40,321 bases of DNA from Phycisphaerae bacterium (GTDB lineage Bacteria; Planctomycetota; Phycisphaerae; Sedimentisphaerales; Anaerobacaceae): positions 1 to 40,321 of the forward strand of contig JAUXAL010000035.1 of NCBI GenBank assembly GCA_030619925.1. The letters are read 5' to 3'. The notes under the pieces are model-generated. The model searched no databases, was not told the origin of the DNA, and was given only the letters and a program-made list of their open reading frames with translations. A program made the position numbers and the translations under genes. Below, in pieces: positions 17,638 to 40,184 of this stretch. Each line of letters begins with the position of its first letter. The stretch's first letter is position 1.

Positions 17638-17708
17638 CGTATTGCGTATATCGTATATCGTATTGCGTTTTTGTTTTGCGCGATACACATCACGCAATAC
17701 GCACGACG
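17638..17708. repeat. Heptamer tandem repeat site A with inverted partner
   Basis: CGTATTG, CGTATAT, CGTATAT and CGTATTG follow one another from 17638 with an exact 7-bp period. From 17679 to 17708 the opposite strand reads CGTCGTG, CGTATTG, CGTGATG, again in period 7. The two arrays pair over about two thirds of their positions. The site lies between fliS and fliC. Confidence 0.8.
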
Positions 17709-17730
17709 AATTAGCTGGCATTTTAACTTA

Positions 17731-17772
17731 CGGGGAGATGACCCAAGGGTTCCTGTCCCGGTCATCTCCCCG
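17731..17772 (-). terminator. Strong hairpin downstream of fliC
   Basis: CGGGGAGATGACC (17731-17743) pairs perfectly over 13 bp with GGTCATCTCCCCG (17760-17772) around a 16-nt loop, 29 bp past the flagellin stop codon. The T-tract that should follow on the minus strand is weak, so this may be a terminator, an attenuator before fliS, or an mRNA 3'-end stabiliser. Confidence 0.6.
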
Positions 17773-17801
17773 CTGGTCATTCAAATATTTGAGTGCTGCT
17801 G

Positions 17802-19025
17802 CTATCTCAGTAGAGTCAATGCCATTTGTGGCATGGCATTCGCCTGTGCCAACATCGCGACACCGGCTTGTGCCAGCACTTGCGTTCTGGTCATCTCTGC
17901 CATTTCGGTGGCAACGTCAACATCGGAAATTCGGGACTCTGATGTCAGCAGGTTCTCGGCCTGGACGTTCAAGACCGATTCGGCAACCTCCAGACGGTTC
18001 ATCCAGTACCCGAGCTTCGCACGGTAGGTGTCCTTGACCGTAATAGCGGCATCGATGGTCGTCAATGCGGCCACTGCACCGGTGGCCGACGTCAGGTCGT
18101 TGCCCACGCCGCCGCTTGCACCGTCTACGCTCTCAGTGAAGTCGGCGGTGCTATTCAATACAGCAATGCTATCGCCCCCGGTGTCGTGAACTTCAAAGTC
18201 ATACGAACCGGCAGTTCTGGCCTGGAGCTGCAGAGTGTACCTGCCGCCCATTTCCGAAGAGTAAAGAGTAGATGCAGCCGTATACGCTGTGCCCGTCTGA
18301 CTCGTCACCTCAGCGTTGATTTTAGTAACCAGTGCGTTCAGGCTTATGCCGGTGCCCGTGTAGTTGGTAAGGTCAATGCCAATCGTTGTCGCATTAGTAT
18401 CACCGAAACGGTAAACGAACATGTCGGTGGTGCCCCCCACGATCTCGGTGTCCAAAATGTAAATCTCACTGGCCGATGTAACGCTTCTCATGTGGACGTG
18501 CGTTTCCGTTGTCTCCAACGTGGTACCGACGGTCAGCGAGGCAGCATCCATTTTCTCCGGAGTGATATTAATATAGCCACTGCCGACGTGGATGCCGACG
18601 CCAACGGTTGAGTTGAGCAAGAAGTTGTCATTAAAGTCGGTACTCTCGGCAATCCGGGTGATCTCTTCCTGCAACTCGACATACTCATTGTGCATAATTT
18701 GCCGCTGGTCTGAAGAGTATGACCCGGTGGAGGCTTGCTCGGCCAGCTCCCTCATACGAACAAGGATGCTGTCAACCTCGCCCATTGCGCCTTCGGCCGT
18801 CTGAATCATGCTGATGCCGTCGGCGGCGTTTCGCCCTGCCTGCCGGAGCACAGCAATGTCGGCGCGAAGCAGCTCTCGAACGGCCAGGCCGGCTGCGTCG
18901 TCCTTTGCACTGTTAATGCGCAAGCCTGACGACAGCCTTTCGACCGATCTGGCCAGGGCGTTGTAGCTTTTGCCCAAGTGCCTTGCGGCGTTTGCTGCCA
19001 TAATGTTGTTCTTAATTGCTAACAT
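17802..19025 (-). CDS. fliC: Flagellin
   Basis: This 407-residue flagellin has both conserved D0/D1 ends. The N-terminus includes RHLGKSYNALARSVERLSSGLRI-type sequence, the DDAAGLAV segment and the ISMIQTAEGAM helix. The C-terminus includes ISDVDVATEMAEMTRTQVLAQAGVAML. The variable centre (about residues 140-300) is rich in Thr, Ser and Gly and could be a glycosylation target. Flagellin is exported by the flagellar type III system and polymerises into the filament. AAGGAG lies 9 nt before the ATG, and a near-perfect sigma-28 promoter lies about 125 bp upstream. Glycosyltransferase genes follow on the far side of its promoter. Confidence 0.97.
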   Translation of the reverse strand: MLAIKNNIMAANAARHLGKSYNALARSVERLSSGLRINSAKDDAAGLAVRELLRADIAVLRQAGRNAADGISMIQTAEGAMGEVDSILVRMRELAEQASTGSYSSDQRQIMHNEYVELQEEITRIAESTDFNDNFLLNSTVGVGIHVGSGYINITPEKMDAASLTVGTTLETTETHVHMRSVTSASEIYILDTEIVGGTTDMFVYRFGDTNATTIGIDLTNYTGTGISLNALVTKINAEVTSQTGTAYTAASTLYSSEMGGRYTLQLQARTAGSYDFEVHDTGGDSIAVLNSTADFTESVDGASGGVGNDLTSATGAVAALTTIDAAITVKDTYRAKLGYWMNRLEVAESVLNVQAENLLTSESRISDVDVATEMAEMTRTQVLAQAGVAMLAQANAMPQMALTLLR

Positions 19026-19148
19026 ACTTTTTACTCCTTAAAAAACAAACGTTCATTTTTTCGAGGTCTAACATACCCCCTGTTAACATTATTTAACCTC
19101 ATTTAACCTCTAACCATTATGTCCTGAAGATTAAGCTTCCACTGGCCA

Positions 19149-19175
19149 TTATCGGCAAGGAGGAAAGGAACTTTA
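19149..19175 (-). promoter_or_regulatory. Sigma-28 (FliA) promoter of fliC
   Basis: On the minus strand TAAAGTTC is separated by exactly 11 bp from GCCGATAA. The sigma-28 consensus is TAAAGTTT-N11-GCCGATAA, so only one position differs. The position, about 125 bp upstream of the flagellin start, implies a long untranslated leader. This predicts late-class expression under FliA and FlgM control. Confidence 0.9.
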
Positions 19176-19440
19176 GGTATTTGTTAATGGAAAGTGACTA
19201 CAAAATCGTAAGACCGGTAATCTCAATGAATCGGGGTTAATATTGGAAACAGGCCGGTAAAAACAGCGCAAAAAAAGGAAAAAGTTCGCTAAGTTATCGG
19301 TCTTTCCGACGGGAATTTGCAGATTGATGGTCCGAGTCTCCGGAAAATACCCTTATCTACAAAAAAAGGCTTTATAACAAAAGAATAATTCTTGCTCAAA
19401 TTACTCTAAGCAAGTATAGTTCAAGGTAATGGTGCACGCT

Positions 19441-19496
19441 GGTAACTGGTAACTGGTAAATGGTAAATGGTAACTGGTAACGAATCACCAATTACC
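19441..19496. repeat. Heptamer tandem repeat site B
   Basis: Six units with exact 7-bp period run from 19441 to 19482: GGTAACT twice, GGTAAAT twice, GGTAACT, GGTAACG. They are followed by AATCACC and AATTACC (19483-19496), whose complements GGTGATT and GGTAATT are again related heptamers, so an inverted pair can form. The array ends 19 bp before the GT4 start codon. Confidence 0.85.
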
Positions 19497-19515
19497 AATA
19501 TAGTCCAGGCAATAT

Positions 19516-20544
19516 ATGCAGAAACAACAAGCACAAACTCACAAAAAGACGCTGCTCGTATTTAACTGTCACGAGGCATGGGTGTATCAACTGAGGGTAT
19601 TGGGCTATAACCTCGATATAATCACAGGGCTTGAAGGCAGATATAAAGAAAACTGGGATGAGCAGATGCGTCCCGTGCCCGCTGATTCCCGGTTAGTCAG
19701 CTTATCGCAAGCACATAGCACGAAAATACCATATTACTGTATCATAGCATATAACATAACCGATTTGCTGGATGTTAAGCATCTATCCGGGCCTCGGCTT
19801 ATAGTTATTCACTCTACACTTGAGAGACGAGTGGTGGAAGAAAAATCAAATATTGCACCGGAAAAGATGAGAGCGGCGTTGCACAAATACCTTCAATTAA
19901 TCGGTGGGCATGCGGTGGCTGTCTCTGCGCTGAAGGGTAAATCGTGGGGGATTACTGACGATATTGTGCCCTTTGGAGTTGACGCGGATGATTACTTGCC
20001 ATATTCCGGGGAGAAATGCAGCGGTCTTCGGATCTGCAATTTTGTTGAGAACCGCTGGAAGATTTTTTTATGGGACTTTTATGAAACGGCATTTAACGGC
20101 ATCCCGGTGCAGCTCGTCGGGCACGATCCGAATATTCCGGAAGCCAAAGCTGCCCAGAGCTGGGAGCAGCTAAAGAAGATATTGCAGTCTCATCGGTTCT
20201 ATATACATACTGCAGACCAGAGATACGAAGACGGATACAATATGGCCACGCTGGAGGCAATGGCTGCCGGGCTGCCGGTTTTAGGTAATCGGCACTTCAA
20301 CTCACCTGTTGAACACGGCGTAAGCGGGTTTCTGAGCGACGATGCCGGAGAATTGGCGAAATACGCCCGGATGTTGCTGGCGGATAGAGATTTGGCGGTC
20401 AGCATGGGGCAGGAAGCTCGCAAAGCTGTTATTGAGCGTTTCTCTATGGACAAACTCAAAAAAGCCTTTCTGCAATCTATCGAAACGGCCCGGGTTAAAT
20501 ATCAAAGCCCAGTGGATACGATTCCGGCTTCTCAGCAGAGCTGA
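19516..20544 (+). CDS. GT4-family glycosyltransferase, probably for flagellin
   Basis: This 342-residue protein has GT-B-fold features of family GT4. A C-terminal nucleotide-sugar-binding segment has DGYNMATLEAMAAGLPVLG (D-x7-E in place of the usual E-x7-E) followed by VEHGVSGFL. A basic, aspartate-rich mid region IVPFGVDADDY resembles the linker between domains. It lacks a signal peptide and should act in the cytoplasm. Its position between fliC and fliK, opposite the GT41-like gene, suggests flagellin or surface glycosylation, which is an inference. AGG lies 6-8 nt before the ATG. The last 50 bp overlap the end of the convergent GT41-like gene. Confidence 0.8.
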   Translation: MQKQQAQTHKKTLLVFNCHEAWVYQLRVLGYNLDIITGLEGRYKENWDEQMRPVPADSRLVSLSQAHSTKIPYYCIIAYNITDLLDVKHLSGPRLIVIHSTLERRVVEEKSNIAPEKMRAALHKYLQLIGGHAVAVSALKGKSWGITDDIVPFGVDADDYLPYSGEKCSGLRICNFVENRWKIFLWDFYETAFNGIPVQLVGHDPNIPEAKAAQSWEQLKKILQSHRFYIHTADQRYEDGYNMATLEAMAAGLPVLGNRHFNSPVEHGVSGFLSDDAGELAKYARMLLADRDLAVSMGQEARKAVIERFSMDKLKKAFLQSIETARVKYQSPVDTIPASQQS

Positions 20545-23350
20545 CTGCCGCTGTATCTATTGAAATCGTCGGGTGATGTATAAAGGGTTTGGCTTCTTCG
20601 ATATCTGGATAATTGAGCAGTTTCAACGCCTGCCGGTAGTCGTCGCTTTGGCGGAATCTTTGCAGAAGCTCCGGCGAGACCGAAGGCCGCCGATGCGGTT
20701 GAATCTGCCCGGGTTTTGAGCCGCAGGATTGTCTTTCTGTATCGCCGGTGATGCGGTCGTAATCGTGCCATTTTTGCAAAAAGTCTTCATCAAATTCAAG
20801 CCGCAGCTTTTCACAAATAATTTTCATCTGCCAGAGAGGCTGGGCAGTAAAGTCTTCGTAACGGACAAACCCAATCCTAACGCTGTGTTCGGCAAACCTC
20901 AGGTATCCCCGCAGGAACATTTCAAGGGTTAATTTTCCCTGCATAAGCGCCAGCTTGCTCAAACTAAGCCACTGGTCCACGGGATGTCGTACGAGAGCGA
21001 CCTGTATGACGTCGAAAGCTGGTGCAAGTACTTCGGCCAACAGCATTCGATAGCTTGGGTGCTTGAGGAAGGGCACGGCCATAAAGTCAAGATGTCCCCA
21101 GTCGCGAATTACGAGGCTCCGGCCGGTCTCGGCGCAGGGGGTCTCAATGAGGCCGATAGCATCGACGAAATCGACGTTTTTCCTCGCGTTGAGGGTGCGG
21201 ATATCCTCCGTGGTCAGAAGATTGTGCCAGTCGTGGGCCTGCATTACGGGATTGAAGTATGCGGTGCCGAGTGGATGAATTTCGCTCAAAAGCACTATGT
21301 TGTTCATACAGCCCAGGCACTTGCAGACCACGGTTCCCCCAGCTTGGGCAAGGTTGTGAAAGATACGGATGGGGGGCTTTTCTAATGAGTCTCTCGGTGT
21401 CTTGTGCTCCAACTGTTTAGGCGCCGGCTCAATAGAGCTTACAGAACGGATTTCTGCGTCGGCACCGCAGCTTTGGTCATCCGAGGTAACTTGTTCAGCA
21501 GTGACCTCGGCACTGCGGCCCCGACACCATCGGTGCCACATTTCTCGATAGGCGGCTTCCACATTTTTGACGAATCTATTTGTATTGCACAACGAAGCGC
21601 CGGCTATTGTTTTTCGCATTAAAGAGCGCATTTCTACAAGGTTCTGTCGTTTTGCTGCAAGGGCAGTGGTTCTGGTGACATACTCTTGAGGCGTCGAGGC
21701 CGCCAGGAACGCCATACCAAAACGGGTCAATATGGTCAACCCGACTCTGGACATGTGATGTTGCCCGACCAGCGAGATTACAGGTACGCCCATCCATAAT
21801 GCCTCGAAAGTTGTTGTCGTACCATTGTAAGGATAGGTATCCAGGGCAATGTCAATTTGGCCGTATAATTTCAAGTGCTCGACGCGATGTTTTGGGCCGT
21901 GGATATCTACCCGGTCTGTATGGATTCCAAGTTGCTCGAACTTGTGTAGGTAATGGTCCCTTAGCGGCTCGTCCTGGCCACCTCTGAACTTCAGCAGAAA
22001 ACGCGAACCGTCATTGGCCTTGAGAACTTCGGCCCAGAGTGATATAATAAGTGGGTTTATCTTACAGTTATTGTTAAATGAGCCAAAGGTAATATAACCA
22101 TTTTTAAGGGCGGGCAGAGGCGCAACCGGTGGAGCATAATCAACAGGTTTGTAGCAGAGAAAGCCATCCGGCAGATAGACCAATTCCTCAGTGTAAAATT
22201 GTTGTGATTCGGGGGGGTCGGCCAATTCGTCGGTCAAACGATAATCGACCTGCTCCATTCCGGTTGTATCGGGATATCCGAGGTAGGTAACCTGGATTGG
22301 AGCCGGCTTGTGTGCCAGCACAGGCAGACGATTATTGCCCGTGTGGCCGGCAAGGTCCACCAAAATATCGACTTTGTCCTTTTCGATCATTTCGATGACC
22401 GCTTTGTCGCTGACTCCGTAGATGTTTTGGAAGTGATCGAATTTGAACTTCAGGCGTTCAGTAACCTCGTCAGGCCGCTCGACGCTGCTATATCCATAAG
22501 TTTCCACCGCTTGATGATTTTGTTCCTCCAGAAGTATCTCAAAAAAATACGCGACCGAGTGCTTACGAAAATCGGGTGAGATGTAACCAATTCGAAGCCG
22601 GCGGTCAGGGTCTGGGACATTGTCGTGAGATGTTCTGGCCAAAGTTGTCGGCCCTTGTATCCGGGCCCATCGCTTGTGCTCGTCAAAGAACGATTGGCGG
22701 TCCGGGTCTGACAGATAATGCATAAAAAGCAAGAAGTTGGAATGGACTACCGGGTTGCCGGGTGCCTTTTCGACCGCTTTTCGCAATATCTCGATGCCTT
22801 GTTGTGCTTCACCCATCCGTGCCATGTGCATGCCACAGTTATTCAGCACCACACCGTTATCAGGATTGGCCTCCAAAGCTTTTCTGCGATATTCCATTTC
22901 TTCGGTTCTTCGTCCCAGCTTCTCCTTGATATTTGCCAGTTCGTTGTACACTGTCCAATGTGGTTTTCGCCTCAAAATATTCATGTACCATTCTTCGGCC
23001 TTATCGAGCCGTCCGATACCGACTAAGGTCATCGCAAGTATATACATAACCGCCATTTGGGATGGGTCCTTCTCCACCATTTGTCGAACAATTTCGATAT
23101 TGTCATCATTGATAAGGTCCCTGGCTTCATCGGTCCGTCCAGCTTGAATGGCTTGCCTTGCCCTAATGAGAAATTCCGGCAGGTTGTCTTCTGAGGTGGT
23201 AACTCGCATCCGACCGTCTTTCAAAACGGTAAATTGTATTTCGTCATTCTCACAGGAGGTTCTCCTGGGACCGGACGGCTTTCTCATCATTTGTTTCTTC
23301 TTTCTCTTCTTTTGGCGGTGCGAACGCTTTAGTTTTCTGTTTTGACTCAT
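20495..23350 (-). CDS. TPR - GT41 (OGT/SPINDLY) - sulfotransferase-like fusion protein
   Basis: This 951-residue protein has three parts. After a very basic N-terminus (residues 1-30) come TPR-like helices (about 95-210). The GT41 catalytic region (about 251-610) follows, with RIGYISPDFRKHSVAYF, VDLAGHTGNNRLPVLAHKPAP, FGSFNNNCKINP and DTYPYNGTTTTFEALWMGVPV, typical of bacterial O-GlcNAc-transferase relatives. After a linker, residues 661-900 resemble sulfotransferases: a 5'-phosphosulfate-loop-like start IRIFHNLAQAGGTVVCKCLG and a 3'-phosphate-binding VRHPVDQWLSLSK. Proteins of this type modify Ser/Thr with sugar; the sulfotransferase-like part could add sulfate. Given fliC nearby, flagellin is the obvious candidate target. 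GAAAGG precedes the ATG. Confidence 0.85.
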   Translation of the reverse strand: MSQNRKLKRSHRQKKRKKKQMMRKPSGPRRTSCENDEIQFTVLKDGRMRVTTSEDNLPEFLIRARQAIQAGRTDEARDLINDDNIEIVRQMVEKDPSQMAVMYILAMTLVGIGRLDKAEEWYMNILRRKPHWTVYNELANIKEKLGRRTEEMEYRRKALEANPDNGVVLNNCGMHMARMGEAQQGIEILRKAVEKAPGNPVVHSNFLLFMHYLSDPDRQSFFDEHKRWARIQGPTTLARTSHDNVPDPDRRLRIGYISPDFRKHSVAYFFEILLEEQNHQAVETYGYSSVERPDEVTERLKFKFDHFQNIYGVSDKAVIEMIEKDKVDILVDLAGHTGNNRLPVLAHKPAPIQVTYLGYPDTTGMEQVDYRLTDELADPPESQQFYTEELVYLPDGFLCYKPVDYAPPVAPLPALKNGYITFGSFNNNCKINPLIISLWAEVLKANDGSRFLLKFRGGQDEPLRDHYLHKFEQLGIHTDRVDIHGPKHRVEHLKLYGQIDIALDTYPYNGTTTTFEALWMGVPVISLVGQHHMSRVGLTILTRFGMAFLAASTPQEYVTRTTALAAKRQNLVEMRSLMRKTIAGASLCNTNRFVKNVEAAYREMWHRWCRGRSAEVTAEQVTSDDQSCGADAEIRSVSSIEPAPKQLEHKTPRDSLEKPPIRIFHNLAQAGGTVVCKCLGCMNNIVLLSEIHPLGTAYFNPVMQAHDWHNLLTTEDIRTLNARKNVDFVDAIGLIETPCAETGRSLVIRDWGHLDFMAVPFLKHPSYRMLLAEVLAPAFDVIQVALVRHPVDQWLSLSKLALMQGKLTLEMFLRGYLRFAEHSVRIGFVRYEDFTAQPLWQMKIICEKLRLEFDEDFLQKWHDYDRITGDTERQSCGSKPGQIQPHRRPSVSPELLQRFRQSDDYRQALKLLNYPDIEEAKPFIHHPTISIDTAAVSSAEKPESYPLGFDI

Positions 23351-23444
23351 CTGAACCTTTCTTGCAAAAAAGTCGGCTCAATCAAAATCTCTGTCCATCC
23401 GGTAAAAAGTCGCTCGTGATAGACGAAGAGATTTTTGGATCTGT

Positions 23445-25205
23445 TTATATCAACATATTTATTGAATGATCGCTAACAAACATCTCTTGTAGTTCGTGTA
23501 ATCCAGTATAACTATTGTCGTTTGTCAGCCATTCGTTGGCAGGTGTGTTGTTTGCCCCCGCACCTGGGTTCGCCGAGTCTTGTTGCTGGGCCCAGCCGTT
23601 TTGTGGCGATTGATCTTTAAGAGCCTGTTGCTCTGATTTTTCCCCATCAGATAGCAGAACTTCAAGCCGCTTTATCTGAATACCGCAATCTGCAAGGTCT
23701 CGGATTATCTGCGGCAGTGCCTGCTCAATCTCATATCTGGTTTGTGCCTTGCTGACTTCCAGCAGGCCTGTTATTTGGGCGTCCTGCTCCTGGAATTTTA
23801 TGAAAACCTTCCCCAGTTCCGGTGGATTGAGGCGGACGGTAATTTGCTGGTTCTTGCCTTGTTGGGATAAAGAGTTGTGAATAGATTCAAGAATCTGTTT
23901 GCCAATACCTGCAGAGACATCACTGGACGAAGTCTGCTCTGGCAGATTGGCGGTCTTTGGGGCCTCGGCAGAGGCGGGCGATTGCTCTGTAACGGGAGTT
24001 TGGGGGTTGTTGTGAGAGAGTATCTGCTCAAAATTCGAATTGGAGCTATTGTCGGAGGTCGAGTTGCCACGGTCTTTTGTTTGGCCGGTGGATATTTTGA
24101 CCTCCGTTACATTCAACTTCTGGACAGTAGAATCTCCTGAGAGATTGCCCGCCTGCTCTTTGGCATTGCAGCCTGGCGATTCTGAGAGTGTTTGACCAGG
24201 CTCCGGTTTTGCGACGTTTTGTGAGATGGGGCCCAGGCACTGCTGATCGCCGGTAGCTTTGTTATCGGTTGGTGTCTCAGCGGTAGGAGCGGATTTTTCC
24301 GGACAAATCCCGATAAGCTGGGACTGGGGTTCAGAGGATTTGTCCTGAACCGGTGGACAGTTGGTGTTCAATGGCGGTGTTTCTTGAGTGTCGGAAATAG
24401 CTGGCTTGTCTGCCATAGCCGTTTTTTCGCCGGTAGTGGCTGCCTTGCTGTCGTTGTCAAGAAGAGCTTCGTGTATCAATTCTTTGGTGTTTTCCCCGTT
24501 GTCAGAGGTTGTTGTGGGAACGACTGTTTCATTTGGCATCAGTAGCTCATCGGCGTTTTTGCCTTCCCCAAGCTGGGTATCGGCAGTAGGCGCACCCTTG
24601 GATGTGTCTGGCAGAACGGTTTTGGGCCCGAGTTGGCCGTTGGATGTCTCTGGTAGAACGGTTTTGAGTCCAAGTTGGCCCTTCTCACCAGTAGTTAGAA
24701 GAAGTTTGATTTCGGCTGCCTTGGCAGCTTGTCCAGTAACAGGAGGGGATTTGTCGGTGCTCAAATTGGCGGTCAATTGGGCAAGTAGGTGCCCGGCTTT
24801 CGGTTGCGCTGTTGTAGCGACCTCTTTGACGAGCGGCGCAACTGAAATTATTGACACTGGAGTCGCAAGAAGCTGCGCAGGATTTATCTTAAAAGACGCC
24901 CCAGAGGTCAGGTCTTGTTTTTTTGATGTTGTGTTACCATCTGCTTTCGGGGGTGTTTCAGTCGTTACTGTTTTGCGAAGCGTTTGGCTAAAATCTTGCG
25001 GTGGTTTGTTAACAAGCTCATTTTCGGCGCTAGTGGGTGTATTATCGGTCTTTGTTGTTTCGGGAATGTTAACGGACGGTGGGTTATCATCTGGGGTCGG
25101 GGAGAATTGTGCGGCTTTTTTGACCGCATTGGGTCTTGATGGAACTGGGGCTGCGCTGGCTGTTGCTACGAACATATTATCGATTGTTAACGGACTGGTA
25201 TACAT
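23445..25205 (-). CDS. fliK: Flagellar hook-length control protein FliK
   Basis: This 586-residue protein has a long, low-complexity Thr/Pro/Ser/Lys-rich N-terminal part and a conserved C-terminal Flg_hook domain (about residues 460-545), with QITVRLNPPELGKVFIKFQ, the signature of FliK. FliK is exported, measures the hook and switches the export gate from hook to filament substrates through FlhB. The N-terminal ruler contains a 42-bp tandem duplication. AAGGA lies 7 nt before the ATG. Transcription runs away from the main operon from a sigma-54 promoter about 36 bp upstream. Length is within the wide range of the family. Confidence 0.92.
   Translation of the reverse strand: MYTSPLTIDNMFVATASAAPVPSRPNAVKKAAQFSPTPDDNPPSVNIPETTKTDNTPTSAENELVNKPPQDFSQTLRKTVTTETPPKADGNTTSKKQDLTSGASFKINPAQLLATPVSIISVAPLVKEVATTAQPKAGHLLAQLTANLSTDKSPPVTGQAAKAAEIKLLLTTGEKGQLGLKTVLPETSNGQLGPKTVLPDTSKGAPTADTQLGEGKNADELLMPNETVVPTTTSDNGENTKELIHEALLDNDSKAATTGEKTAMADKPAISDTQETPPLNTNCPPVQDKSSEPQSQLIGICPEKSAPTAETPTDNKATGDQQCLGPISQNVAKPEPGQTLSESPGCNAKEQAGNLSGDSTVQKLNVTEVKISTGQTKDRGNSTSDNSSNSNFEQILSHNNPQTPVTEQSPASAEAPKTANLPEQTSSSDVSAGIGKQILESIHNSLSQQGKNQQITVRLNPPELGKVFIKFQEQDAQITGLLEVSKAQTRYEIEQALPQIIRDLADCGIQIKRLEVLLSDGEKSEQQALKDQSPQNGWAQQQDSANPGAGANNTPANEWLTNDNSYTGLHELQEMFVSDHSINMLI
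24597..24680 (-). repeat. Two tandem 42-bp units within fliK
   Basis: Units 24597-24638 and 24639-24680 differ at only a few positions and encode two 14-residue copies of the form GQLG(L/P)KTVLP(E/D)TS(N/K). The duplication lies in the disordered ruler part of FliK, where length changes are expected to alter hook length. Confidence 0.85.
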
Positions 25206-25639: not shown

Positions 25640-25711
25640 CAGGGACCCCGCTTGGCGGGAACCCAGGGACCCCGCTTGGCGGGAAACCAGGGACCCCGCT
25701 TGGCGGGAAAC
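25640..25711. repeat. Three tandem 24-bp hairpin repeats in the flgB leader
   Basis: Three copies of a 24-bp unit start at 25640, 25664 and 25688 with one or two differences. Each contains CCCGC and GCGGG separated by TTG, so each can form a small hairpin. They lie between the sigma-54 promoter and the flgB start codon. There are no spacers, so this is not a CRISPR array. Confidence 0.85.
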
Positions 25712-25732
25712 CATAATATTGGGAAACTTCAG

Positions 25733-26581: not shown

Positions 26582-26944
26582 ATGGTTAACTTGAATGCAA
26601 ATGTAAGTGGGGCCTCAAATGCAATGAAGGGTGTTTGGAAACCCGGCTCGGTACAACCCAGGGCCAATCCCGATTCTTTTGGGATGCCGAAAGTGGGAAG
26701 TTCCGATGCCAAGAAGGCAGACTTTGCTAATGCTGTCAAGGCTGTCGGGAACTACATATCCAAGGTTGATGACCTTCAACAGTCATCAGACATGTCCATA
26801 AAGGATTTATTATCCGGTAAGAATGAGGATATTATCTCGGTGGTCTCGGCGGTGGCTAAAGCTGATATGAGTTTCAAGCTGCTTGTGGGCGTTAGAAATA
26901 AGTTAATTGAAGCGTATAAGCAAACTATGAATATGCCGTTGTAA
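26582..26944 (+). CDS. fliE: Flagellar hook-basal body complex protein FliE
   Basis: This 120-residue protein has the FliE C-terminal pattern DIISVVSAVAKADMSFKLLVGVRNKLIEAYKQTMNMPL. FliE joins the MS ring to the rod and is among the first exported substrates. GGAG lies 6 nt before the ATG and the gene starts 15 bp after flgC. Its stop is followed at once by an AT-rich inverted and heptamer-like repeat that fills the gap to fliF. Confidence 0.93.
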   Translation: MVNLNANVSGASNAMKGVWKPGSVQPRANPDSFGMPKVGSSDAKKADFANAVKAVGNYISKVDDLQQSSDMSIKDLLSGKNEDIISVVSAVAKADMSFKLLVGVRNKLIEAYKQTMNMPL

Positions 26945-27005
26945 TTGATTATATTGATTATTTTTAACGTCTTTTTCAATCACCGGTAATCAATAATCAA
27001 TCAAT
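26944..27005. repeat. AT-rich inverted repeat with partial heptamer period (site C)
   Basis: ATTGATT motifs at 26944 and 26953 face AATCACC, GGTAATC, AATAATC and AATCAAT, consecutive heptamers from 26978 to 27005, on the other strand sense, so a long imperfect hairpin can form. The array ends 11 bp before the fliF start codon. The 7-bp period is less regular than at the other sites. Confidence 0.6.
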
Positions 27006-27016
27006 GAAGGGCTTTA

Positions 27017-32636: not shown

Positions 32637-32658
32637 ATTGCGTTTGGGGTATCAGTTA

Positions 32659-32679
32659 AGTATTGAGAGTTGAGAATCG
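32659..32679. repeat. Heptamer tandem repeat site D
   Basis: AGTATTG, AGAGTTG and AGAATCG follow each other in exact 7-bp steps between fliI and fliJ. The array ends 8 bp before the fliJ ATG and provides the only purine-rich GAG-like sequence in the position of a ribosome-binding site. Confidence 0.65.
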
Positions 32680-32687
32680 GAAATTAA

Positions 32688-33152
32688 ATGAAACGGTTCG
32701 TATGGCGGTTGCAGCGTGTCCTTGACATAAAGAAAAAGCAAGAACAGAAAACCAGAGCTGAATTGCTTGAGCTGACGGGAAAGATAGCCCAGAGGCGAGG
32801 GGAGCTGCTGTCAAAGCAGATGATATTGGAAGATATAATAAATGGTTTGAGCGCCGAAGATCCTAAGAAGCGATTAGGCAAACAAGAATTCTTCTTGAGA
32901 TATTCGGTGGCAAGTAATGAGCAGATTAAGAAGCTCAAAGATAAAGTAAGCGAACTGGAATCACAACAAAGAGAGAAAATTGCTGAGCTTTTAAAAGTCA
33001 AAAGGTTCAAAGAAGGTTTGGAAAGATTGCAAGCTGAAGCAAAGATACAATTTATAAAGGAGCAAGAAAAGCTTGAGCAAAAAGAATTAGATGAGGGAGC
33101 TACGGTTTCATTTGTTCGAAAGAAGAGCTCGTCTTTATCACGCACCCATTAG
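32688..33152 (+). CDS. fliJ: Flagellar FliJ protein
   Basis: This 154-residue, lysine- and glutamate-rich coiled-coil protein starts with FVWRLQRVLDIKKKQEQK, a form of the FliJ N-terminal signature (F-x-L-x-x-V-L-x-x-K). FliJ is the central stalk of the export ATPase, comparable to the gamma subunit of F1, and links FliI to FlhA. It follows fliI directly, as in most operons. The last 20 residues are low-complexity and probably disordered. Confidence 0.85.
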   Translation: MKRFVWRLQRVLDIKKKQEQKTRAELLELTGKIAQRRGELLSKQMILEDIINGLSAEDPKKRLGKQEFFLRYSVASNEQIKKLKDKVSELESQQREKIAELLKVKRFKEGLERLQAEAKIQFIKEQEKLEQKELDEGATVSFVRKKSSSLSRTH

Positions 33153-34049: not shown

Positions 34050-34056
34050 CAGTTCC

Positions 34057-34827
34057 ATGGACATTGCAACAATAATAGGAATACTTCTTGGTTTTTTGGT
34101 CATTACGGGCGCCATTGTCGTTGGTGGTGGTTGGCAGATGTTTATCCATCTTCCCTCACTGGGGATCACCATAGGGGGAATGCTGTGCGCTACGCTTATA
34201 CATTTTTCGCTGCCACAGTTTTTGGGAATATTCTCGGTAATCAAGAAAACAATAATCGCAAAAATACCCTCACAGTCAGAGCTAATTCAAAAAATGGTTA
34301 ACTACGCTGCTATCAACAGGCGTGACGGAGCATTAGCTTTGGAGCAGGAGGTTTCCAAGTTAGACGATTCGTTTTTCATCAAGGGCTTGCAGATGCTTGT
34401 GGATGGGCGGGAAGCTGACTCTATTCGGGAATTTATGGGCCTGGAACTCCAATATCTTGAAGAGCGTCATTCAACCGGTAAAAAGATTTTGGAGTTTATG
34501 GGTGCAGCCGCTCCTGCCTTCGGGATGATAGGCACACTTATCGGCTTGATTCAAATGCTCAGGAGCCTGGATTCGCCTGAATCGATTGGCGCGGGCATGG
34601 CGGTAGCTTTGCTTACCACTTTTTATGGTGCACTATCTGCCAATTTGATTTTCATTCCATTGGCGGGCAAACTGGGGATTTATTCCAAGGCAGAAACGAC
34701 CACAATGGAGATGATTACAGAAGGTATCTGCGCTATTGCACAAGGTGATAATCCGACCGTTGTTCGAGAAAAATTGCAGGCATTTGTCTCCGAGGGCAGG
34801 CGGGAGGAAGTAAAGGCTAATATATAA
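34057..34827 (+). CDS. motA: Flagellar stator subunit MotA/PomA
   Basis: This 256-residue protein has four predicted transmembrane helices: two near the N-terminus (residues 5-55) and two near 145-205. The motif PAFGMIGTLIGLIQMLRSLDSPESIG carries the conserved proline, and LLTTFYGALSANL is the last helix. The cytoplasmic loop between helices 2 and 3 holds charged residues that touch FliG (DSIREFMGLELQYLEERH). Five MotA copies surround two MotB copies and drive rotation with H+ or Na+. It overlaps motB copy 1 by one base (TAATG). Confidence 0.94.
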   Translation: MDIATIIGILLGFLVITGAIVVGGGWQMFIHLPSLGITIGGMLCATLIHFSLPQFLGIFSVIKKTIIAKIPSQSELIQKMVNYAAINRRDGALALEQEVSKLDDSFFIKGLQMLVDGREADSIREFMGLELQYLEERHSTGKKILEFMGAAAPAFGMIGTLIGLIQMLRSLDSPESIGAGMAVALLTTFYGALSANLIFIPLAGKLGIYSKAETTTMEMITEGICAIAQGDNPTVVREKLQAFVSEGRREEVKANI

Positions 34828-35555: not shown

Positions 35556-36283
35556 AGCGTCAAGTACTGGCAATCAAGGATAAAGGTACCAAGGTCCCAG
35601 CGTATATCGTTACATTTTCGGATATGGTAACGTTGCTGCTGACGTTCTTTGTGATGCTGCTGAGCTTGGCGAAGGTCCAGGACCCGGAATTATTTAACAT
35701 AGGCCGAGGATCCTTTGTGCAGTCGATTAAACGCCTCGGACTTGGAGTGCTTTCTGGTGCAAAGCCAACACTGGATTTTGGTCATCGCAAAATCAAGTAT
35801 TCTGTAGACAACCCTGACGAGTCATTCGAGGGCAGGAGCATACACCCAAAGGAAGAACAAGTTCGTCGCCTTTTTAGTGATCTAAGCCGGTCTATGAACA
35901 CCATGGGTTCACAAATAGTCGCAAAAGCCCCCAGTTTTTCGGTAACCAATGTTCGCTTTCCAAGGGGTGGCGCACGCCTGGATGAGTCGGCAAGGCGGTT
36001 CTTAACGGAATTTTGCCTTAATTTGCAAGATTCCGGTCCGAAGTCTGTCAAGCTTTATGTGCTTGGTTTGGCCGGCGATGAAGCAACTGAGAAAGAGCAG
36101 TGGATAGTGTCGGCCAGACGGGCTCAAGCGGTTGCGGATTTACTACACGGCGTTTTGCCTTTGGGGGCAGAGCGGCGGGTTTACTCCTGGGGAGCAGGGC
36201 CGGGAGGTGATTGGGTGCGGCAGGATAGCCCGATTTCCAAACGGTCGCAGATCCTAATCGCAATTCTAAGAGAGAGCGATTAA
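35552..36283 (+). CDS. motB: Flagellar stator subunit MotB, copy 2
   Basis: This 243-residue protein starts at TTG, overlapping the stop of copy 1 (TTGA). Its transmembrane segment YIVTFSDMVTLLLTFFVMLLSL keeps the essential aspartate (D24). The C-terminal OmpA-like domain includes VSARRAQAVADLL and ends SKRSQILIAIL, matching the conserved NRRVEI region in position. It is clearly divergent from copy 1. With only one motA present, the stator may be a MotA5-MotB1-MotB2 heteromer, or the two B subunits may alternate. It is the last gene before a 220-bp gap with a new sigma-54 promoter. Confidence 0.9.
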   Translation: MKRQVLAIKDKGTKVPAYIVTFSDMVTLLLTFFVMLLSLAKVQDPELFNIGRGSFVQSIKRLGLGVLSGAKPTLDFGHRKIKYSVDNPDESFEGRSIHPKEEQVRRLFSDLSRSMNTMGSQIVAKAPSFSVTNVRFPRGGARLDESARRFLTEFCLNLQDSGPKSVKLYVLGLAGDEATEKEQWIVSARRAQAVADLLHGVLPLGAERRVYSWGAGPGGDWVRQDSPISKRSQILIAILRESD

Positions 36284-36384
36284 TTTGTGCGCTTGTCAAG
36301 TTTTTCGACAATTTGCCTGATTATGCGGCCAATTCTTGCGCCAAAATCGTCGCTGGTGGTGTATTAATGCCCATTTTAGCATTT

Positions 36385-36399
36385 CGGCACGCTGTTTGC
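36385..36399 (+). promoter_or_regulatory. Sigma-54 promoter upstream of fliO
   Basis: CGGCACGCTGTTTGC has the invariant GG and GC exactly 12 bp apart, with one mismatch to TGGCAC in the -24 box. It lies about 105 bp before the fliO start and would give the export-gate genes their own RpoN-dependent promoter. Confidence 0.75.
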
Positions 36400-36441
36400 G
36401 TACAAAATGACCAAGAGGCGTTGCATTTGCGGGAGAGCTTG

Positions 36442-36459
36442 CCCCTGCGGAGACAGGGG
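36442..36459. repeat. Palindrome in the fliO leader
   Basis: CCCCTG (36442-36447) and CAGGGG (36454-36459) pair perfectly around CGGAGA. It lies between the sigma-54 promoter and the fliO start and so would be in the mRNA leader. A role in translation control is possible but untested. Confidence 0.65.
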
Positions 36460-36503
36460 GCCGCGATGCGCCGTAGAATAAGAGTCCAGGAATTATATTT
36501 GAC

Positions 36504-36995
36504 GTGTTTTACAGCGTGGTCGGATTTAAGAAAAAAATCGTTGCGTTCTTGGTAACAATTGCATTGGGCAGCGGTGTGCTCGTTCTCTGCTCGGCTCAAT
36601 CGGCTACTGACCGAACAGTACCCGCCGATGGCGGGTCGAAATCCAAAACCGGTTCCCTATTTGCGAATGACCCCAATTTTTCTGAGAGACAGAGCGATAG
36701 CGCTGGTAGCCGAGAACTGTTCTATAAGATGGTGCTTTCGGTTTTGCTCGTTGTTGCGCTGGGTGTAGCTGCGATTTACGTTTCAAAAAAGCTTCTCCCA
36801 AAGATTACTAACCTGCCGGGCAAAGAGATTCGTATTGTCGAAACAGTCCACCTCGGACCACGCAAAGCGGTGCATCTGCTCGAGATAGGCGTTCGACGGT
36901 TCCTTATAGGCAGTACAAATGAGAACATCACGAAATTGGCTGACATAACCGGTACCTTAACGGATTTAACAGCGCAAGAAATGAATAATAATTAG
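36504..36995 (+). CDS. fliO: Flagellar export-gate assembly protein FliO
   Basis: This 163-residue protein begins at GTG (36504), with a second in-frame GTG at 36516. A signal-peptide-like stretch (AFLVTIALGSGVLVLCSA) is followed by a polar linker, one transmembrane helix (MVLSVLLVVALGVAAIYVSKKLLP) and the FliO core KEIRIVETVHLGPRKAVHLLEIGVRRFLIGST. FliO helps FliP assemble in the export gate. The linker contains an in-frame palindrome (36620-36636). It precedes fliP by 8 bp, the standard order fliOPQR. Confidence 0.87.
   Translation: MFYSVVGFKKKIVAFLVTIALGSGVLVLCSAQSATDRTVPADGGSKSKTGSLFANDPNFSERQSDSAGSRELFYKMVLSVLLVVALGVAAIYVSKKLLPKITNLPGKEIRIVETVHLGPRKAVHLLEIGVRRFLIGSTNENITKLADITGTLTDLTAQEMNNN
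36620..36636. repeat. Palindrome inside the fliO linker
   Basis: ACCCGCC and GGCGGGT pair perfectly around GAT. The sequence encodes part of VPADGGSK in the flexible region between signal peptide and membrane helix. The core CCGCC-NNN-GGCGG is the same as in the intergenic hairpins at 37867 and 38991. Confidence 0.75.
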
Positions 36996-37003
36996 GAATA
37001 TAA

Positions 37004-37849
37004 ATGACTGGTAAGCTTATTAGAATGGCTTTTCTGGGGTTTGTTGTTTTGACGCCGGCTGGGTTGTGTTTTGGCCAGGGTGCCAATGCGTTCGGGCAAC
37101 CTGGGCTGCCGGGGCAGCCCGGCGATACTTCCGGAGTAAGTGCCCCGACAAACGCGGTTCCAAGCATCAGCGATTTGATGACAGTCATAGATAAGGTGAC
37201 CACCAAAGAGGCCGAAGGCAAAGATTGGTCAACACCTGTCAAACTTGTAATCATCTTTACGGGCCTGGCGATTTTGCCGAGTCTTTTGGTGATGATGACG
37301 TCTTTTACGAGAATAGTTATTGTTTTGGCCTTTGTTCGACGTGCTTTGACCACGCAAACCATACCGCCTACTATTGCAATTATAGGTTTGGCCTTGTTTC
37401 TGACGTTGTATGTGATGGCTCCTACCTTTGCGAAGGTCAACACCAACTCCATCCAGCCGTATCTTGCAGACGAGATTGATTTTCAAGCGGCAGGGAGTAG
37501 GGCCGTCGATTGTATAAAGGAATTTATGCTTCGACAGTGCCGAGAAGCTGATTTGGCTCTTTTTGTGCAGATGGCCAAGATAGAGCCTCCTACCAGTCTG
37601 ATGGATGTGGATATGTATATTGTCATTCCGGCATTTATTATCAGTGAATTCCGCACCGCATTTGAAATAGGCTGCCTTTTGTTTATTCCTTTTCTGCTGA
37701 TAGATATGGTTATTGCCAGTGTCTTGCTTAGTGCCGGTATGATGCTGCTGCCACCGGTGATGATTTCGCTGCCTTTCAAGCTGATATTATTCATTCTTGT
37801 TGATGGGTGGGCGTTACTGGCGAAGAGTCTTAGTCTGGGTTTCAAATAG
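37004..37849 (+). CDS. fliP: Flagellar export-gate protein FliP
   Basis: This 281-residue membrane protein starts with a cleavable-looking signal peptide (residues 1-24), as in other FliP. The conserved helices follow: VIIFTGLAILPSLLVMMTSFTRIVIVL, ALFLTLYVMAPTF, and the C-terminal IPFLLIDMVIASVLLSAGMMLLPP with KLILFILVDGW, diagnostic for FliP/SctR. FliP5-FliQ4-FliR1 forms the core of the type III export gate. The short linker after the signal peptide contains a perfect palindrome (37103-37120) encoding a Gly/Pro/Gln stretch. Confidence 0.95.
   Translation: MTGKLIRMAFLGFVVLTPAGLCFGQGANAFGQPGLPGQPGDTSGVSAPTNAVPSISDLMTVIDKVTTKEAEGKDWSTPVKLVIIFTGLAILPSLLVMMTSFTRIVIVLAFVRRALTTQTIPPTIAIIGLALFLTLYVMAPTFAKVNTNSIQPYLADEIDFQAAGSRAVDCIKEFMLRQCREADLALFVQMAKIEPPTSLMDVDMYIVIPAFIISEFRTAFEIGCLLFIPFLLIDMVIASVLLSAGMMLLPPVMISLPFKLILFILVDGWALLAKSLSLGFK
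37103..37120. repeat. Palindrome inside the fliP linker
   Basis: GGGCTGCC and GGCAGCCC pair perfectly around GG. The segment codes for the low-complexity linker after the FliP signal peptide. It may be another in-frame palindromic unit or a chance result of Gly/Pro codons. Confidence 0.5.
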
Positions 37850-37866
37850 CCTAAAGTGTGAAGCGT

Positions 37867-37883
37867 GCCCGCCATAGGCGGGC
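37867..37883. repeat. Short palindrome between fliP and fliQ
   Basis: GCCCGCC and GGCGGGC pair perfectly around ATA, 18 bp after the fliP stop. It directly precedes heptamer site E. Confidence 0.8.
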
Positions 37884-37884
37884 T

Positions 37885-37941
37885 GGATACTTGGTGCTAC
37901 ATGCTGGAGCGAGTATCAAGTGTCGAGTATCGAGTATTGAG
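37885..37941. repeat. Heptamer tandem repeat site E
   Basis: GAGTATC, AAGTGTC, GAGTATC and GAGTATT run from 37911 to 37938 in exact 7-bp steps. The preceding stretch reads AAGTATC, TAGCACC and CAGCATG on the opposite strand, an inverted, decayed partner. A final GAG lies 5 bp before the fliQ ATG and could serve as a weak ribosome-binding site. Confidence 0.85.
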
Positions 37942-37943
37942 TT

Positions 37944-38213
37944 ATGGATAGTAGTTTCGTTCTTTATCTGGGTCGGCATACTCTCGAGACGGCTTTGCTT
38001 TTAGCAGCTCCGATTCTGCTGACATGTATGATTGTGGGCCTGACGGTGACATTGCTTCAGGCAATTACTTCTATACGCGATATGACCCTAACGATAGTCC
38101 CTAAGCTTCTGGCTGTTGGCGTCGTTATATTGTTTTGTGGTGGCTGGATGCTCCAGGTGATGCTTAGATTTGCCAACGAGTTTTTTGGGCACATCCAAAA
38201 TATCGGGCACTGA
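37944..38213 (+). CDS. fliQ: Flagellar export-gate protein FliQ
   Basis: This 89-residue protein has two hydrophobic helices (about residues 14-40 and 53-75) and the FliQ motifs LLLAAPILLTCMIVGLTVTLLQAITSIRDMTLTIVPKLLAV. It is a core component of the export gate. Its start follows heptamer site E with no other ribosome-binding site. It ends 13 bp before fliR. Confidence 0.95.
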   Translation: MDSSFVLYLGRHTLETALLLAAPILLTCMIVGLTVTLLQAITSIRDMTLTIVPKLLAVGVVILFCGGWMLQVMLRFANEFFGHIQNIGH

Positions 38214-38226
38214 TTGTAGGCGTGAG

Positions 38227-38970
38227 ATGTTCGAAAAACTGCTTGCTTTCGTTATGGTGCTGACAAGGATTTCGGCGTTCTTTTTGGTTCTTCCTGTTTT
38301 TGGGTGGAAAAGCATTCCGGTGAGGATCAAAGTTGCATTGACCGTTCTGATGGCCCTTTTCTTTTCGGTGATAACACCTTTGGCTATCGAGCCGAAGTCG
38401 ATTTCTGTGTTGGAGGCAATATTGCTGATAGCTAATGAAGCTACGTACGGTTTAGCTCTGGGATTAATCGCTGCTCTTATATTTACCGCGGTTAAGCTCA
38501 GCGGGCGGCTTATCGAACGGCAGATGGGTTTTGCTATGGCCCAGATTATGGACCCATTGACAGGTGAGAGAGCTCAACCGCTGGGTAGCTTGTTGGAGAT
38601 GATATTTATAATCGTATTTCTAAGTGCCAATGGTCACCATTTCTTTTTGCTGATTATCTCACGAAGTTACGAGACATTTCCGGCGGGCAGCGTGCCGACG
38701 ATTCTGGTTTTGGCCGACGGAGTAATTAAAGCCGGTTCAACAATGTTTTTGCTTGGTCTGAGGTTGGCTGCACCGATGTTGGCTGCGTTTTTATTGTTGA
38801 TGGTTGTGTTAGCTGTGTTGGCGCGTATGGTCCCGGAAATGAACATTCTGTTTATCAGTTTGCCATTGCGTGTAGGTCTGGGGTTATTAATGGCAGCGAT
38901 ATTTTTGCCACTTATTAATGCATTTGTGGGTGAATTTGCTGAGTGGATGGGCAAACTGTTGCCTTTGTAA
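38227..38970 (+). CDS. fliR: Flagellar export-gate protein FliR
   Basis: This 247-residue membrane protein begins at MFEKLLAFVMVLTRISAFFLVLPVFG, which matches the start of FliR. An in-frame upstream ATG at 38170 would overlap fliQ and add 19 unrelated residues. Five or six transmembrane helices follow; SGRLIERQMGFAMAQIMDPLTGERAQPLG is a conserved cytoplasmic loop. FliR is a single-copy member of the export gate next to FlhB. Length is typical. Confidence 0.93.
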   Translation: MFEKLLAFVMVLTRISAFFLVLPVFGWKSIPVRIKVALTVLMALFFSVITPLAIEPKSISVLEAILLIANEATYGLALGLIAALIFTAVKLSGRLIERQMGFAMAQIMDPLTGERAQPLGSLLEMIFIIVFLSANGHHFFLLIISRSYETFPAGSVPTILVLADGVIKAGSTMFLLGLRLAAPMLAAFLLLMVVLAVLARMVPEMNILFISLPLRVGLGLLMAAIFLPLINAFVGEFAEWMGKLLPL

Positions 38971-38990
38971 ATCGTGGACCGTGACTGGTT

Positions 38991-39009
38991 AATCCGCCTA
39001 TGGCGGATT
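38991..39009. repeat. Short palindrome between fliR and flhB
   Basis: AATCCGCC and GGCGGATT pair perfectly around TAT. It interrupts a stretch of heptamer-like sequence after fliR, just as the palindrome at 37867 precedes site E. Confidence 0.8.
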
Positions 39010-39031
39010 TGACTACTCACCATTTTTGCGA

Positions 39032-39073
39032 GCATCGATTATCAAGGATCGAACATCGAGCGACGAGCCACAA
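39032..39073. repeat. Heptamer tandem repeat site F
   Basis: GCATCGA, TTATCAA, GGATCGA, ACATCGA, GCGACGA and GCCACAA are six consecutive 7-bp units with the loose consensus NNATCGA. The array ends 13 bp before the flhB start codon. Confidence 0.8.
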
Positions 39074-39086
39074 ATAGGGACAAATT

Positions 39087-40151
39087 ATGCCGGAGAAGCC
39101 AGCCGCCGAAAGGACAGAATTACCAACACCAAGGAGATTGCAGAAAGCCCGGGAGAAAGGGCGGGTGCCCCAGAGCCAGGAGTTGATGTCGATTGTGACA
39201 CTTCTGGTGTTGGTAGCGATGGTTGCTCTGCTGGCTCCGAGTCTGCTGCAATGGTTCATAATACAAGTCAGAGACGGGATGTCGGGTGAAAATACCGTTT
39301 TTGCCGGCAGCAAATCGTTTTCGGATTTCGCCAGTAGAAAAACGGTCGATTTGATACTTATTATCTGCCCCATTCTCGCAGCACTTTTTGCAGGTGCTGT
39401 CTTGACCGGCGTTGCTATCAGCGGCCTGAATTTTGCGCCGGGAGCTATAAACTTGAAATTCAGTCAGCTTAATCCGGTCGCAGGGTTAGGGAGGTTGGTA
39501 AACGCTCAATCTATGGTAAAACTCTTAACATCAGTGCTGAAACTGTTTTTTATCTCACTCATTGTCTGGTTCTATCTTCAGAGCAAGCTCGATGTGCTTG
39601 CTGCTCTTCGATGGGCCTGGTCTGGGCAAATACTTGCGGTTATCGCAAAGATAATACTTGGGTTGATGATACGCGTTGGCATTGCGCTTATGATTATAGC
39701 GATTGCCGAGGCCTTTTATCAGAAATGGAAATACATCCAGGATCTGAAGATGACGCGTCAGGAAGTGAGACAAGAGCGGAGGGATAGAGAAGGTGCGCCT
39801 GAGGTCAAAAGCCGAATGCGGAAAATCCAGCTTGAAATGACCATGAAGCGTATGTTGCAGGAAGTGCCCAAGGCCAGCGTAGTTCTTGTTAACCCGACAC
39901 ATGTAGCTGTTGCGCTTCGTTATGAGCCCAAGACAATGGAATCACCTGTGATGGTGGCCAAAGGAGCAGACCATTTGGCGGAAAGAATCAGAGAAATCGC
40001 ACGGGCTCACGGGGTGCCTGTCATAAGGAGGCCGGAGTTGGCCAGGGCGATATATTCAACAGTAGAAATCGGCAGCCCTATACCACAGACTCTATACGTG
40101 GCGGTAGCGGAGGTGTTAGCTATGATTTACCGTCTGCGGCATAGGAAATAG
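39087..40151 (+). CDS. flhB: Flagellar export switch protein FlhB
   Basis: This 354-residue protein has a charged N-terminus ending in LPTPRRLQKAREKGRVPQSQEL, four transmembrane helices (about residues 30-210) and a cytoplasmic domain with the autocleavage motif NPTH (about residues 268-271; VLVNPTHVAVALRYEP). Cleavage between N and P lets FlhB switch substrate class after FliK signals hook completion. It is the last gene of the visible operon. In many bacteria flhA follows, but here an insertion-sequence-like end begins about 40 bp later. The stop codon lies within heptamer site G. Confidence 0.95.
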   Translation: MPEKPAAERTELPTPRRLQKAREKGRVPQSQELMSIVTLLVLVAMVALLAPSLLQWFIIQVRDGMSGENTVFAGSKSFSDFASRKTVDLILIICPILAALFAGAVLTGVAISGLNFAPGAINLKFSQLNPVAGLGRLVNAQSMVKLLTSVLKLFFISLIVWFYLQSKLDVLAALRWAWSGQILAVIAKIILGLMIRVGIALMIIAIAEAFYQKWKYIQDLKMTRQEVRQERRDREGAPEVKSRMRKIQLEMTMKRMLQEVPKASVVLVNPTHVAVALRYEPKTMESPVMVAKGADHLAERIREIARAHGVPVIRRPELARAIYSTVEIGSPIPQTLYVAVAEVLAMIYRLRHRK

Positions 40152-40184
40152 GAAATGGCCAGTAGTAATCAGTCACCAATCACT
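40141..40184. repeat. Heptamer tandem repeat site G, overlapping the flhB stop codon
   Basis: ATAGGAA occurs twice in tandem (40141-40154), followed in register by ATGGCCA and GTAGTAA and then AGTCACC and AATCACT. Read on the other strand, the whole stretch divides into heptamers (AGTGATT, GGTGACT, GATTACT, ACTGGCC, ATTTCCT, ATTTCCT). The first unit is inside the flhB coding sequence. Confidence 0.75.

Follow-up and report, generated by a model that had tools for sequence, protein, structure and literature searches.

Heptanucleotide tandem repeats of constant period and changing sequence in the flagellar locus and genome of a Phycisphaerae bacterium

The flagellar locus and its heptamer arrays

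The DNA considered here (the window) comprises 40,321 nucleotides, positions 1 to 40,321 of contig JAUXAL010000035.1 (our C93), from the draft genome of a Phycisphaerae bacterium of the family Anaerobacaceae (assembly GCA_030619925.1; 4,018,566 bases in 141 contigs). Seven intergenic gaps of its flagellar locus hold degenerate tandem arrays of seven-base units, the sequence of the unit differing from gap to gap (Table 1). When ten proteins encoded beside these sites were scanned, Pfam scores above the cut-off identified FliS, flagellin, a glycosyltransferase, FliE, FliF, a FliI-type ATPase, FliP, a FliR-type export protein and FlhB, while FliJ fell below it; the FliQ and FliH labels rest on gene position. 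FlhB is 72% identical to its counterpart in a genome of the same family (G023), and a match with the same coordinates was returned for the Phycisphaerae metagenome-assembled genome CSMAG_1316 (locus L065 in G051). Because match and coordinates are identical, G023 and G051 were taken as one genome, which would make the organism of the window a relative of CSMAG_1316.

A local period-7 score was computed for each of the 21 gaps of at least 30 bases, together with 20 flanking bases, and compared with 1000 first-order Markov resamples of that gap, the P values being nominal over the 21 gaps. A preliminary description of this DNA, made from the letters alone, had presented all seven sites as consecutive heptamers, and this stands firmly for five (P<=0.002) and weakly for two, all seven falling below P=0.05; it fails for the left arm at 26944, which has a period of nine. 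In the gap holding that arm a period other than 7 outscores 7 (9.8 versus 8.0), and at 32656 one nearly ties with it (5.8 versus 6.6). The site at 40141 begins within the final codons of flhB, whose stop lies at 40149-40151, and the gap of the 19439 array also holds a period-10 repeat at 19083. Over all non-coding DNA of the window, lags 7, 14 and 21 give autocorrelations of 0.298, 0.294 and 0.298, and every other lag between 3 and 24 falls within 0.246-0.273; the coding DNA of the window gives no peak at lag 7. Thirteen of the remaining 14 gaps gave P>0.1. The same description had placed no arrays in the "sugar" or Nuo/Nfn half, and no strong one is found there, although the gap at 7717-7735, in the "sugar" half, reaches P=0.021. 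This scarcity means little, since that half has 1147 non-coding bases, in which the genome rate (44 arrays outside open reading frames per 63.5 kb of non-coding DNA) predicts fewer than one strong array.

Table 1. Heptamer arrays and associated arms in the window. P, nominal value of the per-gap period-7 test, with the scored interval in brackets; z, fold score against shuffles.
Feature	Position	Strand	Location	Evidence
Period-7 array, CGTATTG/CGTATAT	17637-17671	.	gap between fliS and flagellin frames	P=0.001 (17638-17671)
Imperfect inverted partner arm of the 17637 array	17680-17709	.		sequence; fold z -1.5, not significant
Period-7 array, GGTAACT/GGTAAAT, strongest in the window	19439-19480	.		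P=0.001 (19439-19499)
Short inverted partner arm, AATCACCAATTACCAAT	19483-19499	.		sequence; fold z -0.9, not significant
Left arm, period 9 and not 7, ATTGATTAT x2	26944-26961	.	fliE-fliF gap	
Right arm, period 7, TAATCAA x2.1, inverted to the left arm	26987-27001	.		P=0.016 (26987-27001); fold z -2.5
Weak degenerate period-7 tract, AGTATTG AGAGTTG AGAATCG	32656-32684	.	gap between fliI and fliJ frames	P=0.037 (32656-32684)
Degenerate left arm, GGATACT TGGTGCT ACATGCT	37884-37908	.	gap between fliP and next frame	sequence; fold z -4.3 (37866-37946)
Period-7 array, CGAGTAT	37910-37942	.		P=0.001 (37912-37942)
Degenerate period-7 tract, ATCGAnn	39029-39071	.	fliR-flhB gap	P=0.001 (39029-39071)
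ATAGGAA x2.3	40141-40156	.	overlaps end of flhB frame	P=0.002 (40141-40183)
Degenerate right tract, AGTAATC AGTCACC AATCAC	40163-40183	.		sequence; fold not significant

A period of seven across the genome

Forty stretches of the genome were sampled; nine had been picked for matching the window's sites and were left out of the rates, which therefore refer to 31 stretches totalling 499,288 bases. These contain 59 arrays of period 7, as against 19 of period 9, 11 of period 11, eight of period 10, six of period 8, four of period 12, two of period 6 and none of periods 4, 5 or 13; the 38 arrays of period 14 are as expected of harmonics of seven. Markov controls yielded no period-7 array, either in one replicate or as the mean of three replicates of a smaller set. 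Exact runs of at least nine bases in 63.5 kb of non-coding DNA tell the same story, numbering 27, 29 and 21 at lags 7, 14 and 21, and 0, 1, 1, 5 and 9 at lags 6, 8, 9, 10 and 11, with a CAAACCCAATT repeat accounting for most of those at lag 11. The preference for seven is thus a sharp line and not an edge. Most of the arrays (44 of 59) lie largely outside open reading frames (ORFs) of at least 90 amino acids, and the coding DNA sampled has no peak at lag 7, so that the scan of intergenic regions proposed in the preliminary description does yield a genome-wide excess in gaps. Its association of the arrays with the flagellar locus did not survive: many other contigs carry arrays, no clear preference for gene orientation is seen, and the locus is an ordinary part of an array-rich genome.

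The heptamers of the sampled sequence fall into 82 distinct classes, the commonest present in 12 arrays, and no single one dominates the genome in the manner of the fixed-sequence TAACTGA, GGGAATC or STRR families. In gaps between called ORFs the arrays number 0.48 per kb where the flanking genes are co-directional (16 arrays), 0.66 where divergent (12) and 0.72 where convergent (7), and alignment of period-7 units gives 117 indel columns against 894 mismatch columns; on these grounds neither place nor spacing looks strongly selected. A preference for terminators or promoters is likewise not supported by these densities, and a structured RNA family was rejected, Rfam models giving no match in the window at the gathering score.

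The inverted second arrays seen at several sites had suggested long imperfect hairpins, and single-stranded DNA of each site was folded against 200 shuffles. The proposal holds at three places: none of the 200 shuffles folds as well as 37866-37946 (z -4.3), a separate GC-rich palindrome contributing part of this, 26940-27012 (z -2.5) is equalled by three shuffles, and 38985-39072 (z -2.2), a region that includes a palindrome, by four. It does not hold at the other four, where folding is not significant (17630-17718, z -1.5, 15/200; 19432-19505, z -0.9, 30/200; 32640-32690, z +1.1; 40138-40192, z +0.5). Among 77 sampled arrays, 18 have an inverted partner above the 95% null (about four expected), a count that includes both arms of one hairpin, and 14 have a direct partner above its own null. 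With inverted partners so little above direct ones and arms counted twice, the hairpin was rejected as a general rule; inverted arms, though genuine in places, do not define the arrays. Similar GC-rich palindromes adjoin two sites of the window (CCGCCATAGGCGG at 37867-37883 and CCGCCTATGGCGG at 38992-39010). In the sampled sequence they are not enriched near arrays, one of 23 instances of one pattern lying within 80 bases of an array; for a second pattern the count is one of one.

Two longer repeats also occur in the window, a 24-base unit (CAGGGACCCCGCTTGGCGGGAAAC) present 3.1 times at 25640-25713 and a 42-base unit present twice at 24598-24680.

Gain, loss and replacement of arrays in relatives

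Nine other genomes of the order hold seven period-7 arrays in 394 kb, compared with 59 in 499 kb here; all seven are in the three genomes of the same family (1 in 80 kb, 4 in 60 kb and 2 in 40 kb), and the other six have none. Such density in one genome and sparseness in most of the relatives sampled would be in keeping with a loss of mismatch repair that makes a genome prone to repeats. The MutS mismatch-binding domain, the one component examined, is nevertheless present in this genome. Of 15 genomes tested it was found in 14, whether rich or poor in arrays, and missed in one array-rich draft (G058); loss of MutS was accordingly rejected, and we regard the broader explanation as highly improbable.

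The gaps between five pairs of flagellar genes were then compared among relatives, with 300 resamples for each gap and nominal P values. Period 7 reached P<0.05 in 2 of 8 fliE-fliF, 4 of 9 fliI-fliJ, 2 of 12 fliP-fliQ, 2 of 12 fliQ-fliR and 6 of 13 fliR-flhB pairs, or 16 of 54 in all; ten pairs overlap or have no gap, leaving 44 testable gaps, of which chance alone would bring about two below that threshold. Not all of the 16 are strong: some have two units, and one fliP-fliQ case amounts to plain GC-rich sequence. The fliE-fliF gap is 32, 32, 35, 39, 40 or 245 bases long in relatives without an array and 59 or 89 bases in those with one. The heptamers of the relatives are mostly not those of the window: G003 has CGTGAAG and G024 has ATTGCGG, the latter with a second, inverted arm, where the window has the TTGATTA type. 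Arrays therefore appear and vanish at one place with new sequence, and a short one can persist. Heptamers are shared between relatives and this genome more than by chance (10 of 36, P=0.003 by letter permutation).

Heptamers in unrelated genomes

An exact scan for four copies of TATCGAG returned 45 stretches, from Bacteroidota, Photobacterium, Anaerolineae, Atribacterota, Omnitrophota, Phycisphaerae and others. Genomes found in this way are selected for one heptamer and are not an unbiased survey; within that limit, period 7 leads in six of the eight sampled, with 22 arrays in 65.5 kb (G057), 8 in 58.0 kb (G052), 8 in 34.7 kb (G051), 7 in 24.9 kb (G053), 3 in 4.7 kb (G058) and 1 in 14.1 kb (G046), ties with period 12 in a seventh (G041) and falls behind it in the last (G056, two versus three). 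The 45 stretches had suggested one universal heptamer, a candidate that was rejected, as other heptamers match no better than permuted letters. Once GATACTC-like heptamers are excluded, the sharing of heptamers with this genome by unrelated genomes (8 of 79, P=0.36), and by the array-rich ones (6 of 43, P=0.25), does not exceed that of permuted letters. Comparison of array-rich with diverse sets gave 14 of 43 shared (P=0.007), but the same genomes occur in both. Between unrelated genomes, then, the earlier suggestion of a conserved period without a conserved sequence is borne out.

Particular heptamers are rare even within the phylum: three exact copies of GATACTC occur in 2 of 392 genomes and of CAGAAGA in 4 of 392, the genome of the window being included in both. 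For CAGAAGA the reversed sequence is an uninformative control, being a rotation of itself. For the looser CAGARRW, three copies were met in 7 of 20 genomes (590 places) and, with the motif read backwards as a control, in 5 of 20 (15 places), so that the counts of genomes hardly differ. There are 471 such CAGARRW places in the genome of Deltaproteobacteria bacterium Meg22_46_Bin_1, in which one array of 346 bases (L069, 2854-3199) shows register drift from CAGTGAT through CAGAGGT to TATCGAG.

A dispersed repeat with a variable heptamer segment

An intergenic repeat of about 600 bases, exemplified at L119:9875-10500, combines a TATAAT-like box, a heptamer segment flanked by two conserved anchors, and CAAACCCAATT blocks. 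Its first third has 47 matches in the genome, with 40 of 100 candidates scored, and its last part more than 80 local matches in the sampled sequence. The left anchor matches 32 times in that sequence, and 15 of these matches also have the right anchor. Eleven of the 15 carry whole heptamers of the GTTC type, numbering 1, 3, 3, 3, 3, 4, 4, 5, 5, 6 and 10; in the other four, heptamers of GATACTC or CGTATAT type occupy the GTTC position, followed in one by two GTTC units. Among the 17 left-anchor matches that lack the right anchor, three (L006, L023 and L028) show GATACTC or CGTATAT arrays, and the remaining 14 look like chance matches to a loose pattern. One copy (L169) has a palindrome, CCTGTCCTGAGCGAAGTCGAAGGA, within its heptamer segment. 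Whole units are therefore gained and lost, and one heptamer is swapped for another, between copies of this repeat. The gain and loss of whole units, like the genome-wide excess in gaps and the period kept between unrelated genomes without a common sequence, agrees with the local slippage earlier proposed, the comparison of copies being neutral as to the direction of change and as to slippage versus recombination.

The heptamer arrays carried by this repeat raise the alternative that arrays in general are parts of a mobile element of MITE or REP kind, possibly moved by the genome's own Y1 transposases. The Pfam model Y1_Tnp gives four matches that barely exceed its cut-off (L144, L145, L146 and L147), presumably RAYT-like by their motif, and on L145 an array of the repeat's type stands a few hundred bases from the match. 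On the other hand, contig C93 is absent from the 47 matches, a result limited to the candidates scored and obtained with no anchor search of the window's arrays; inspection by eye shows the anchors to be missing from most of the 77 sampled arrays, array sequence differs between orthologous gaps, and the GC palindromes, present near arrays at the counts given above, do not form the association that marks REP or REPIN elements. We consider mobility of this kind a doubtful source of the arrays.

Discussion

Seven-base units above chance expectation, a mostly non-coding location and change by whole units identify these arrays as heptanucleotide tandem repeats, and the genome described here is a real, dense and genome-wide case of a class already in print. 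In 2007 Mrazek, Guo and Shah found that heptanucleotides outnumber every other class among the longer repeats of most genomes; they proposed slippage and related seven nucleotides to polymerase contact (as quoted in PMC4679880 and PMC4692102). The present arrays resemble theirs in class and in the process proposed, but those were long arrays judged against expectation, and the degenerate tracts of many families seen here would probably escape such a search in part. SPADE likewise reported heptamers as the most abundant intergenic tandem repeats in a wide range of prokaryotes, with function unknown; it is a survey, and in the accessible portions of its text neither independence of sequence nor change in unit number is put to a test (PMC6344855). 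The TAACTGA repeats of Beggiatoaceae, cyanobacteria and Bacteroidetes share the intergenic position and patchy distribution, and two Cyanothece strains differ there by indels in seven-nucleotide steps, but in the BOGUAY genome one heptamer is involved, mostly directly upstream of start codons (PMC4679880), whereas here heptamers are many and orientation bias is not clear. The GGGAATC and GGGGA(T/C)T repeats of Xanthomonas and Nostoc are similarly intergenic, vary in length and sequence between close species and include mention of inverted repeats, while being G-rich single families studied for quadruplexes (PMC4692102). Tandem repeats of constant size and variable sequence, both within and between species, have units of 20-21 and 52 nucleotides, in a search whose shortest unit was 10 (PMC8161180).

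The STRR of heterocystous cyanobacteria are tandem units of seven bases, as here, described with fixed sequences, unlike those found here. The earlier supposition that fixed-sequence heptamers were the only ones known must be abandoned in view of the range of mixed heptamers in Microcystis (PMC4679880), the general abundance of heptamers (PMC6344855) and the constant-size, variable-sequence repeats (PMC8161180). We recognised no paper on such arrays in Phycisphaerae or testing independence of heptamer sequence, in a search largely without subscription papers; five heptamer terms had no match in the accessible text of PMC12699852.

We favor, with a probability of roughly 0.6, the view that the arrays are heptanucleotide tandem repeats made and kept by near-neutral slippage in seven-base steps, combined with copying within the genome. 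Misalignment of strands in such steps could expand any short seed sequence; point mutations would then degrade the units while slippage holds the register, and for that reason the period would be inherited and the sequence not. Copying of arrays between places in the genome would explain why some heptamers recur, and the inverted second arm of some arrays may have arisen by template switching to the other strand. The arrays would occupy non-coding DNA through tolerance rather than service to flagellar genes, and are probably without function; replication slippage is the likelier cause than recombination. Leaving aside the fixed step of seven, slippage with within-genome copying is the best account of the data.

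Several observations weigh against this account. If a polymerase footprint set the period, counts should rise abruptly at 7 and be hardly lower at 8 and 9, giving an edge; the data show a line, which argues against a bare footprint threshold. When GATACTC-like heptamers are kept, sharing with array-rich genomes of other phyla rises to 12 of 61 (P=0.02), in genomes picked for that heptamer. Between genera, the fliI-fliJ tract is conserved at 33 of 36 bases in G023, counted by eye. Gain and loss are seen between repeat copies only, the 40 relatives including none of the same genus. Variation within arrays of this genome is moreover uneven, falling on positions 4 and 7 of GATACTC (P=0.0005) and, with less certainty, on the fifth and sixth of CAGAAGA (P=0.001 or 0.0125, depending on the cut-off). 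These are array-level values, used because units of one array are not independent and a per-unit test overstated the bias. Other phyla show no significant bias of this kind (P=0.07 and 0.18), and universal fixed positions within heptamers were rejected, significance being confined to this genome. We read it as a few variants spread within the genome, although selection or positional constraint could also cause it.

Such a constraint would be expected if the arrays were bound by a protein that recognises RNA or DNA by spacing more than by sequence, such as a cold-shock protein, S1 or a nucleoid protein, with selection keeping the seven-base unit. MacGregor proposes S1, Csp and Csr proteins for the TAACTGA repeats and cites CspB, of which a single protein binds each heptamer and which prefers particular sequences only weakly (PMC4679880); a size constraint has been proposed for other repeats by Subirana and Messeguer (PMC8161180). 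The concentration of variation at two positions fits this idea. Its absence at significance from other phyla does not, nor do the patchy occurrence of arrays among genomes of the order, the lack of clear preference for gene orientation and the single-base indels, which are not rare, and we judge protein binding unlikely.

The line at seven, the sequence independence between phyla and the exchange of heptamers at one place in the dispersed repeat would all suit a dedicated process in which DNA is added or copied exactly seven bases at a time, whatever the sequence. A search limited to Y1_Tnp and MutS found no candidate enzyme, however, and ordinary slippage explains the unit differences; such a process seems improbable, and the templated generator offered in the preliminary description found no evidence in its dedicated form. 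In its boldest version, a sequence-independent process of exact seven-nucleotide steps, active in scattered bacterial lineages and writing new heptamers into gaps, often with an inverted arm, the proposal is speculative to a similar degree; if it were true, the line at seven would be the fixed step of an enzyme or complex.

The preference for exactly seven bases has been noted since 2007 (quoted in PMC4679880) and was called unexplained in 2018 (PMC6344855). This genome provides a natural experiment on it: a single dispersed repeat is present in 15 or more anchored copies, and the differences among them in both the number and the sequence of heptamer units separate the period from the sequence.

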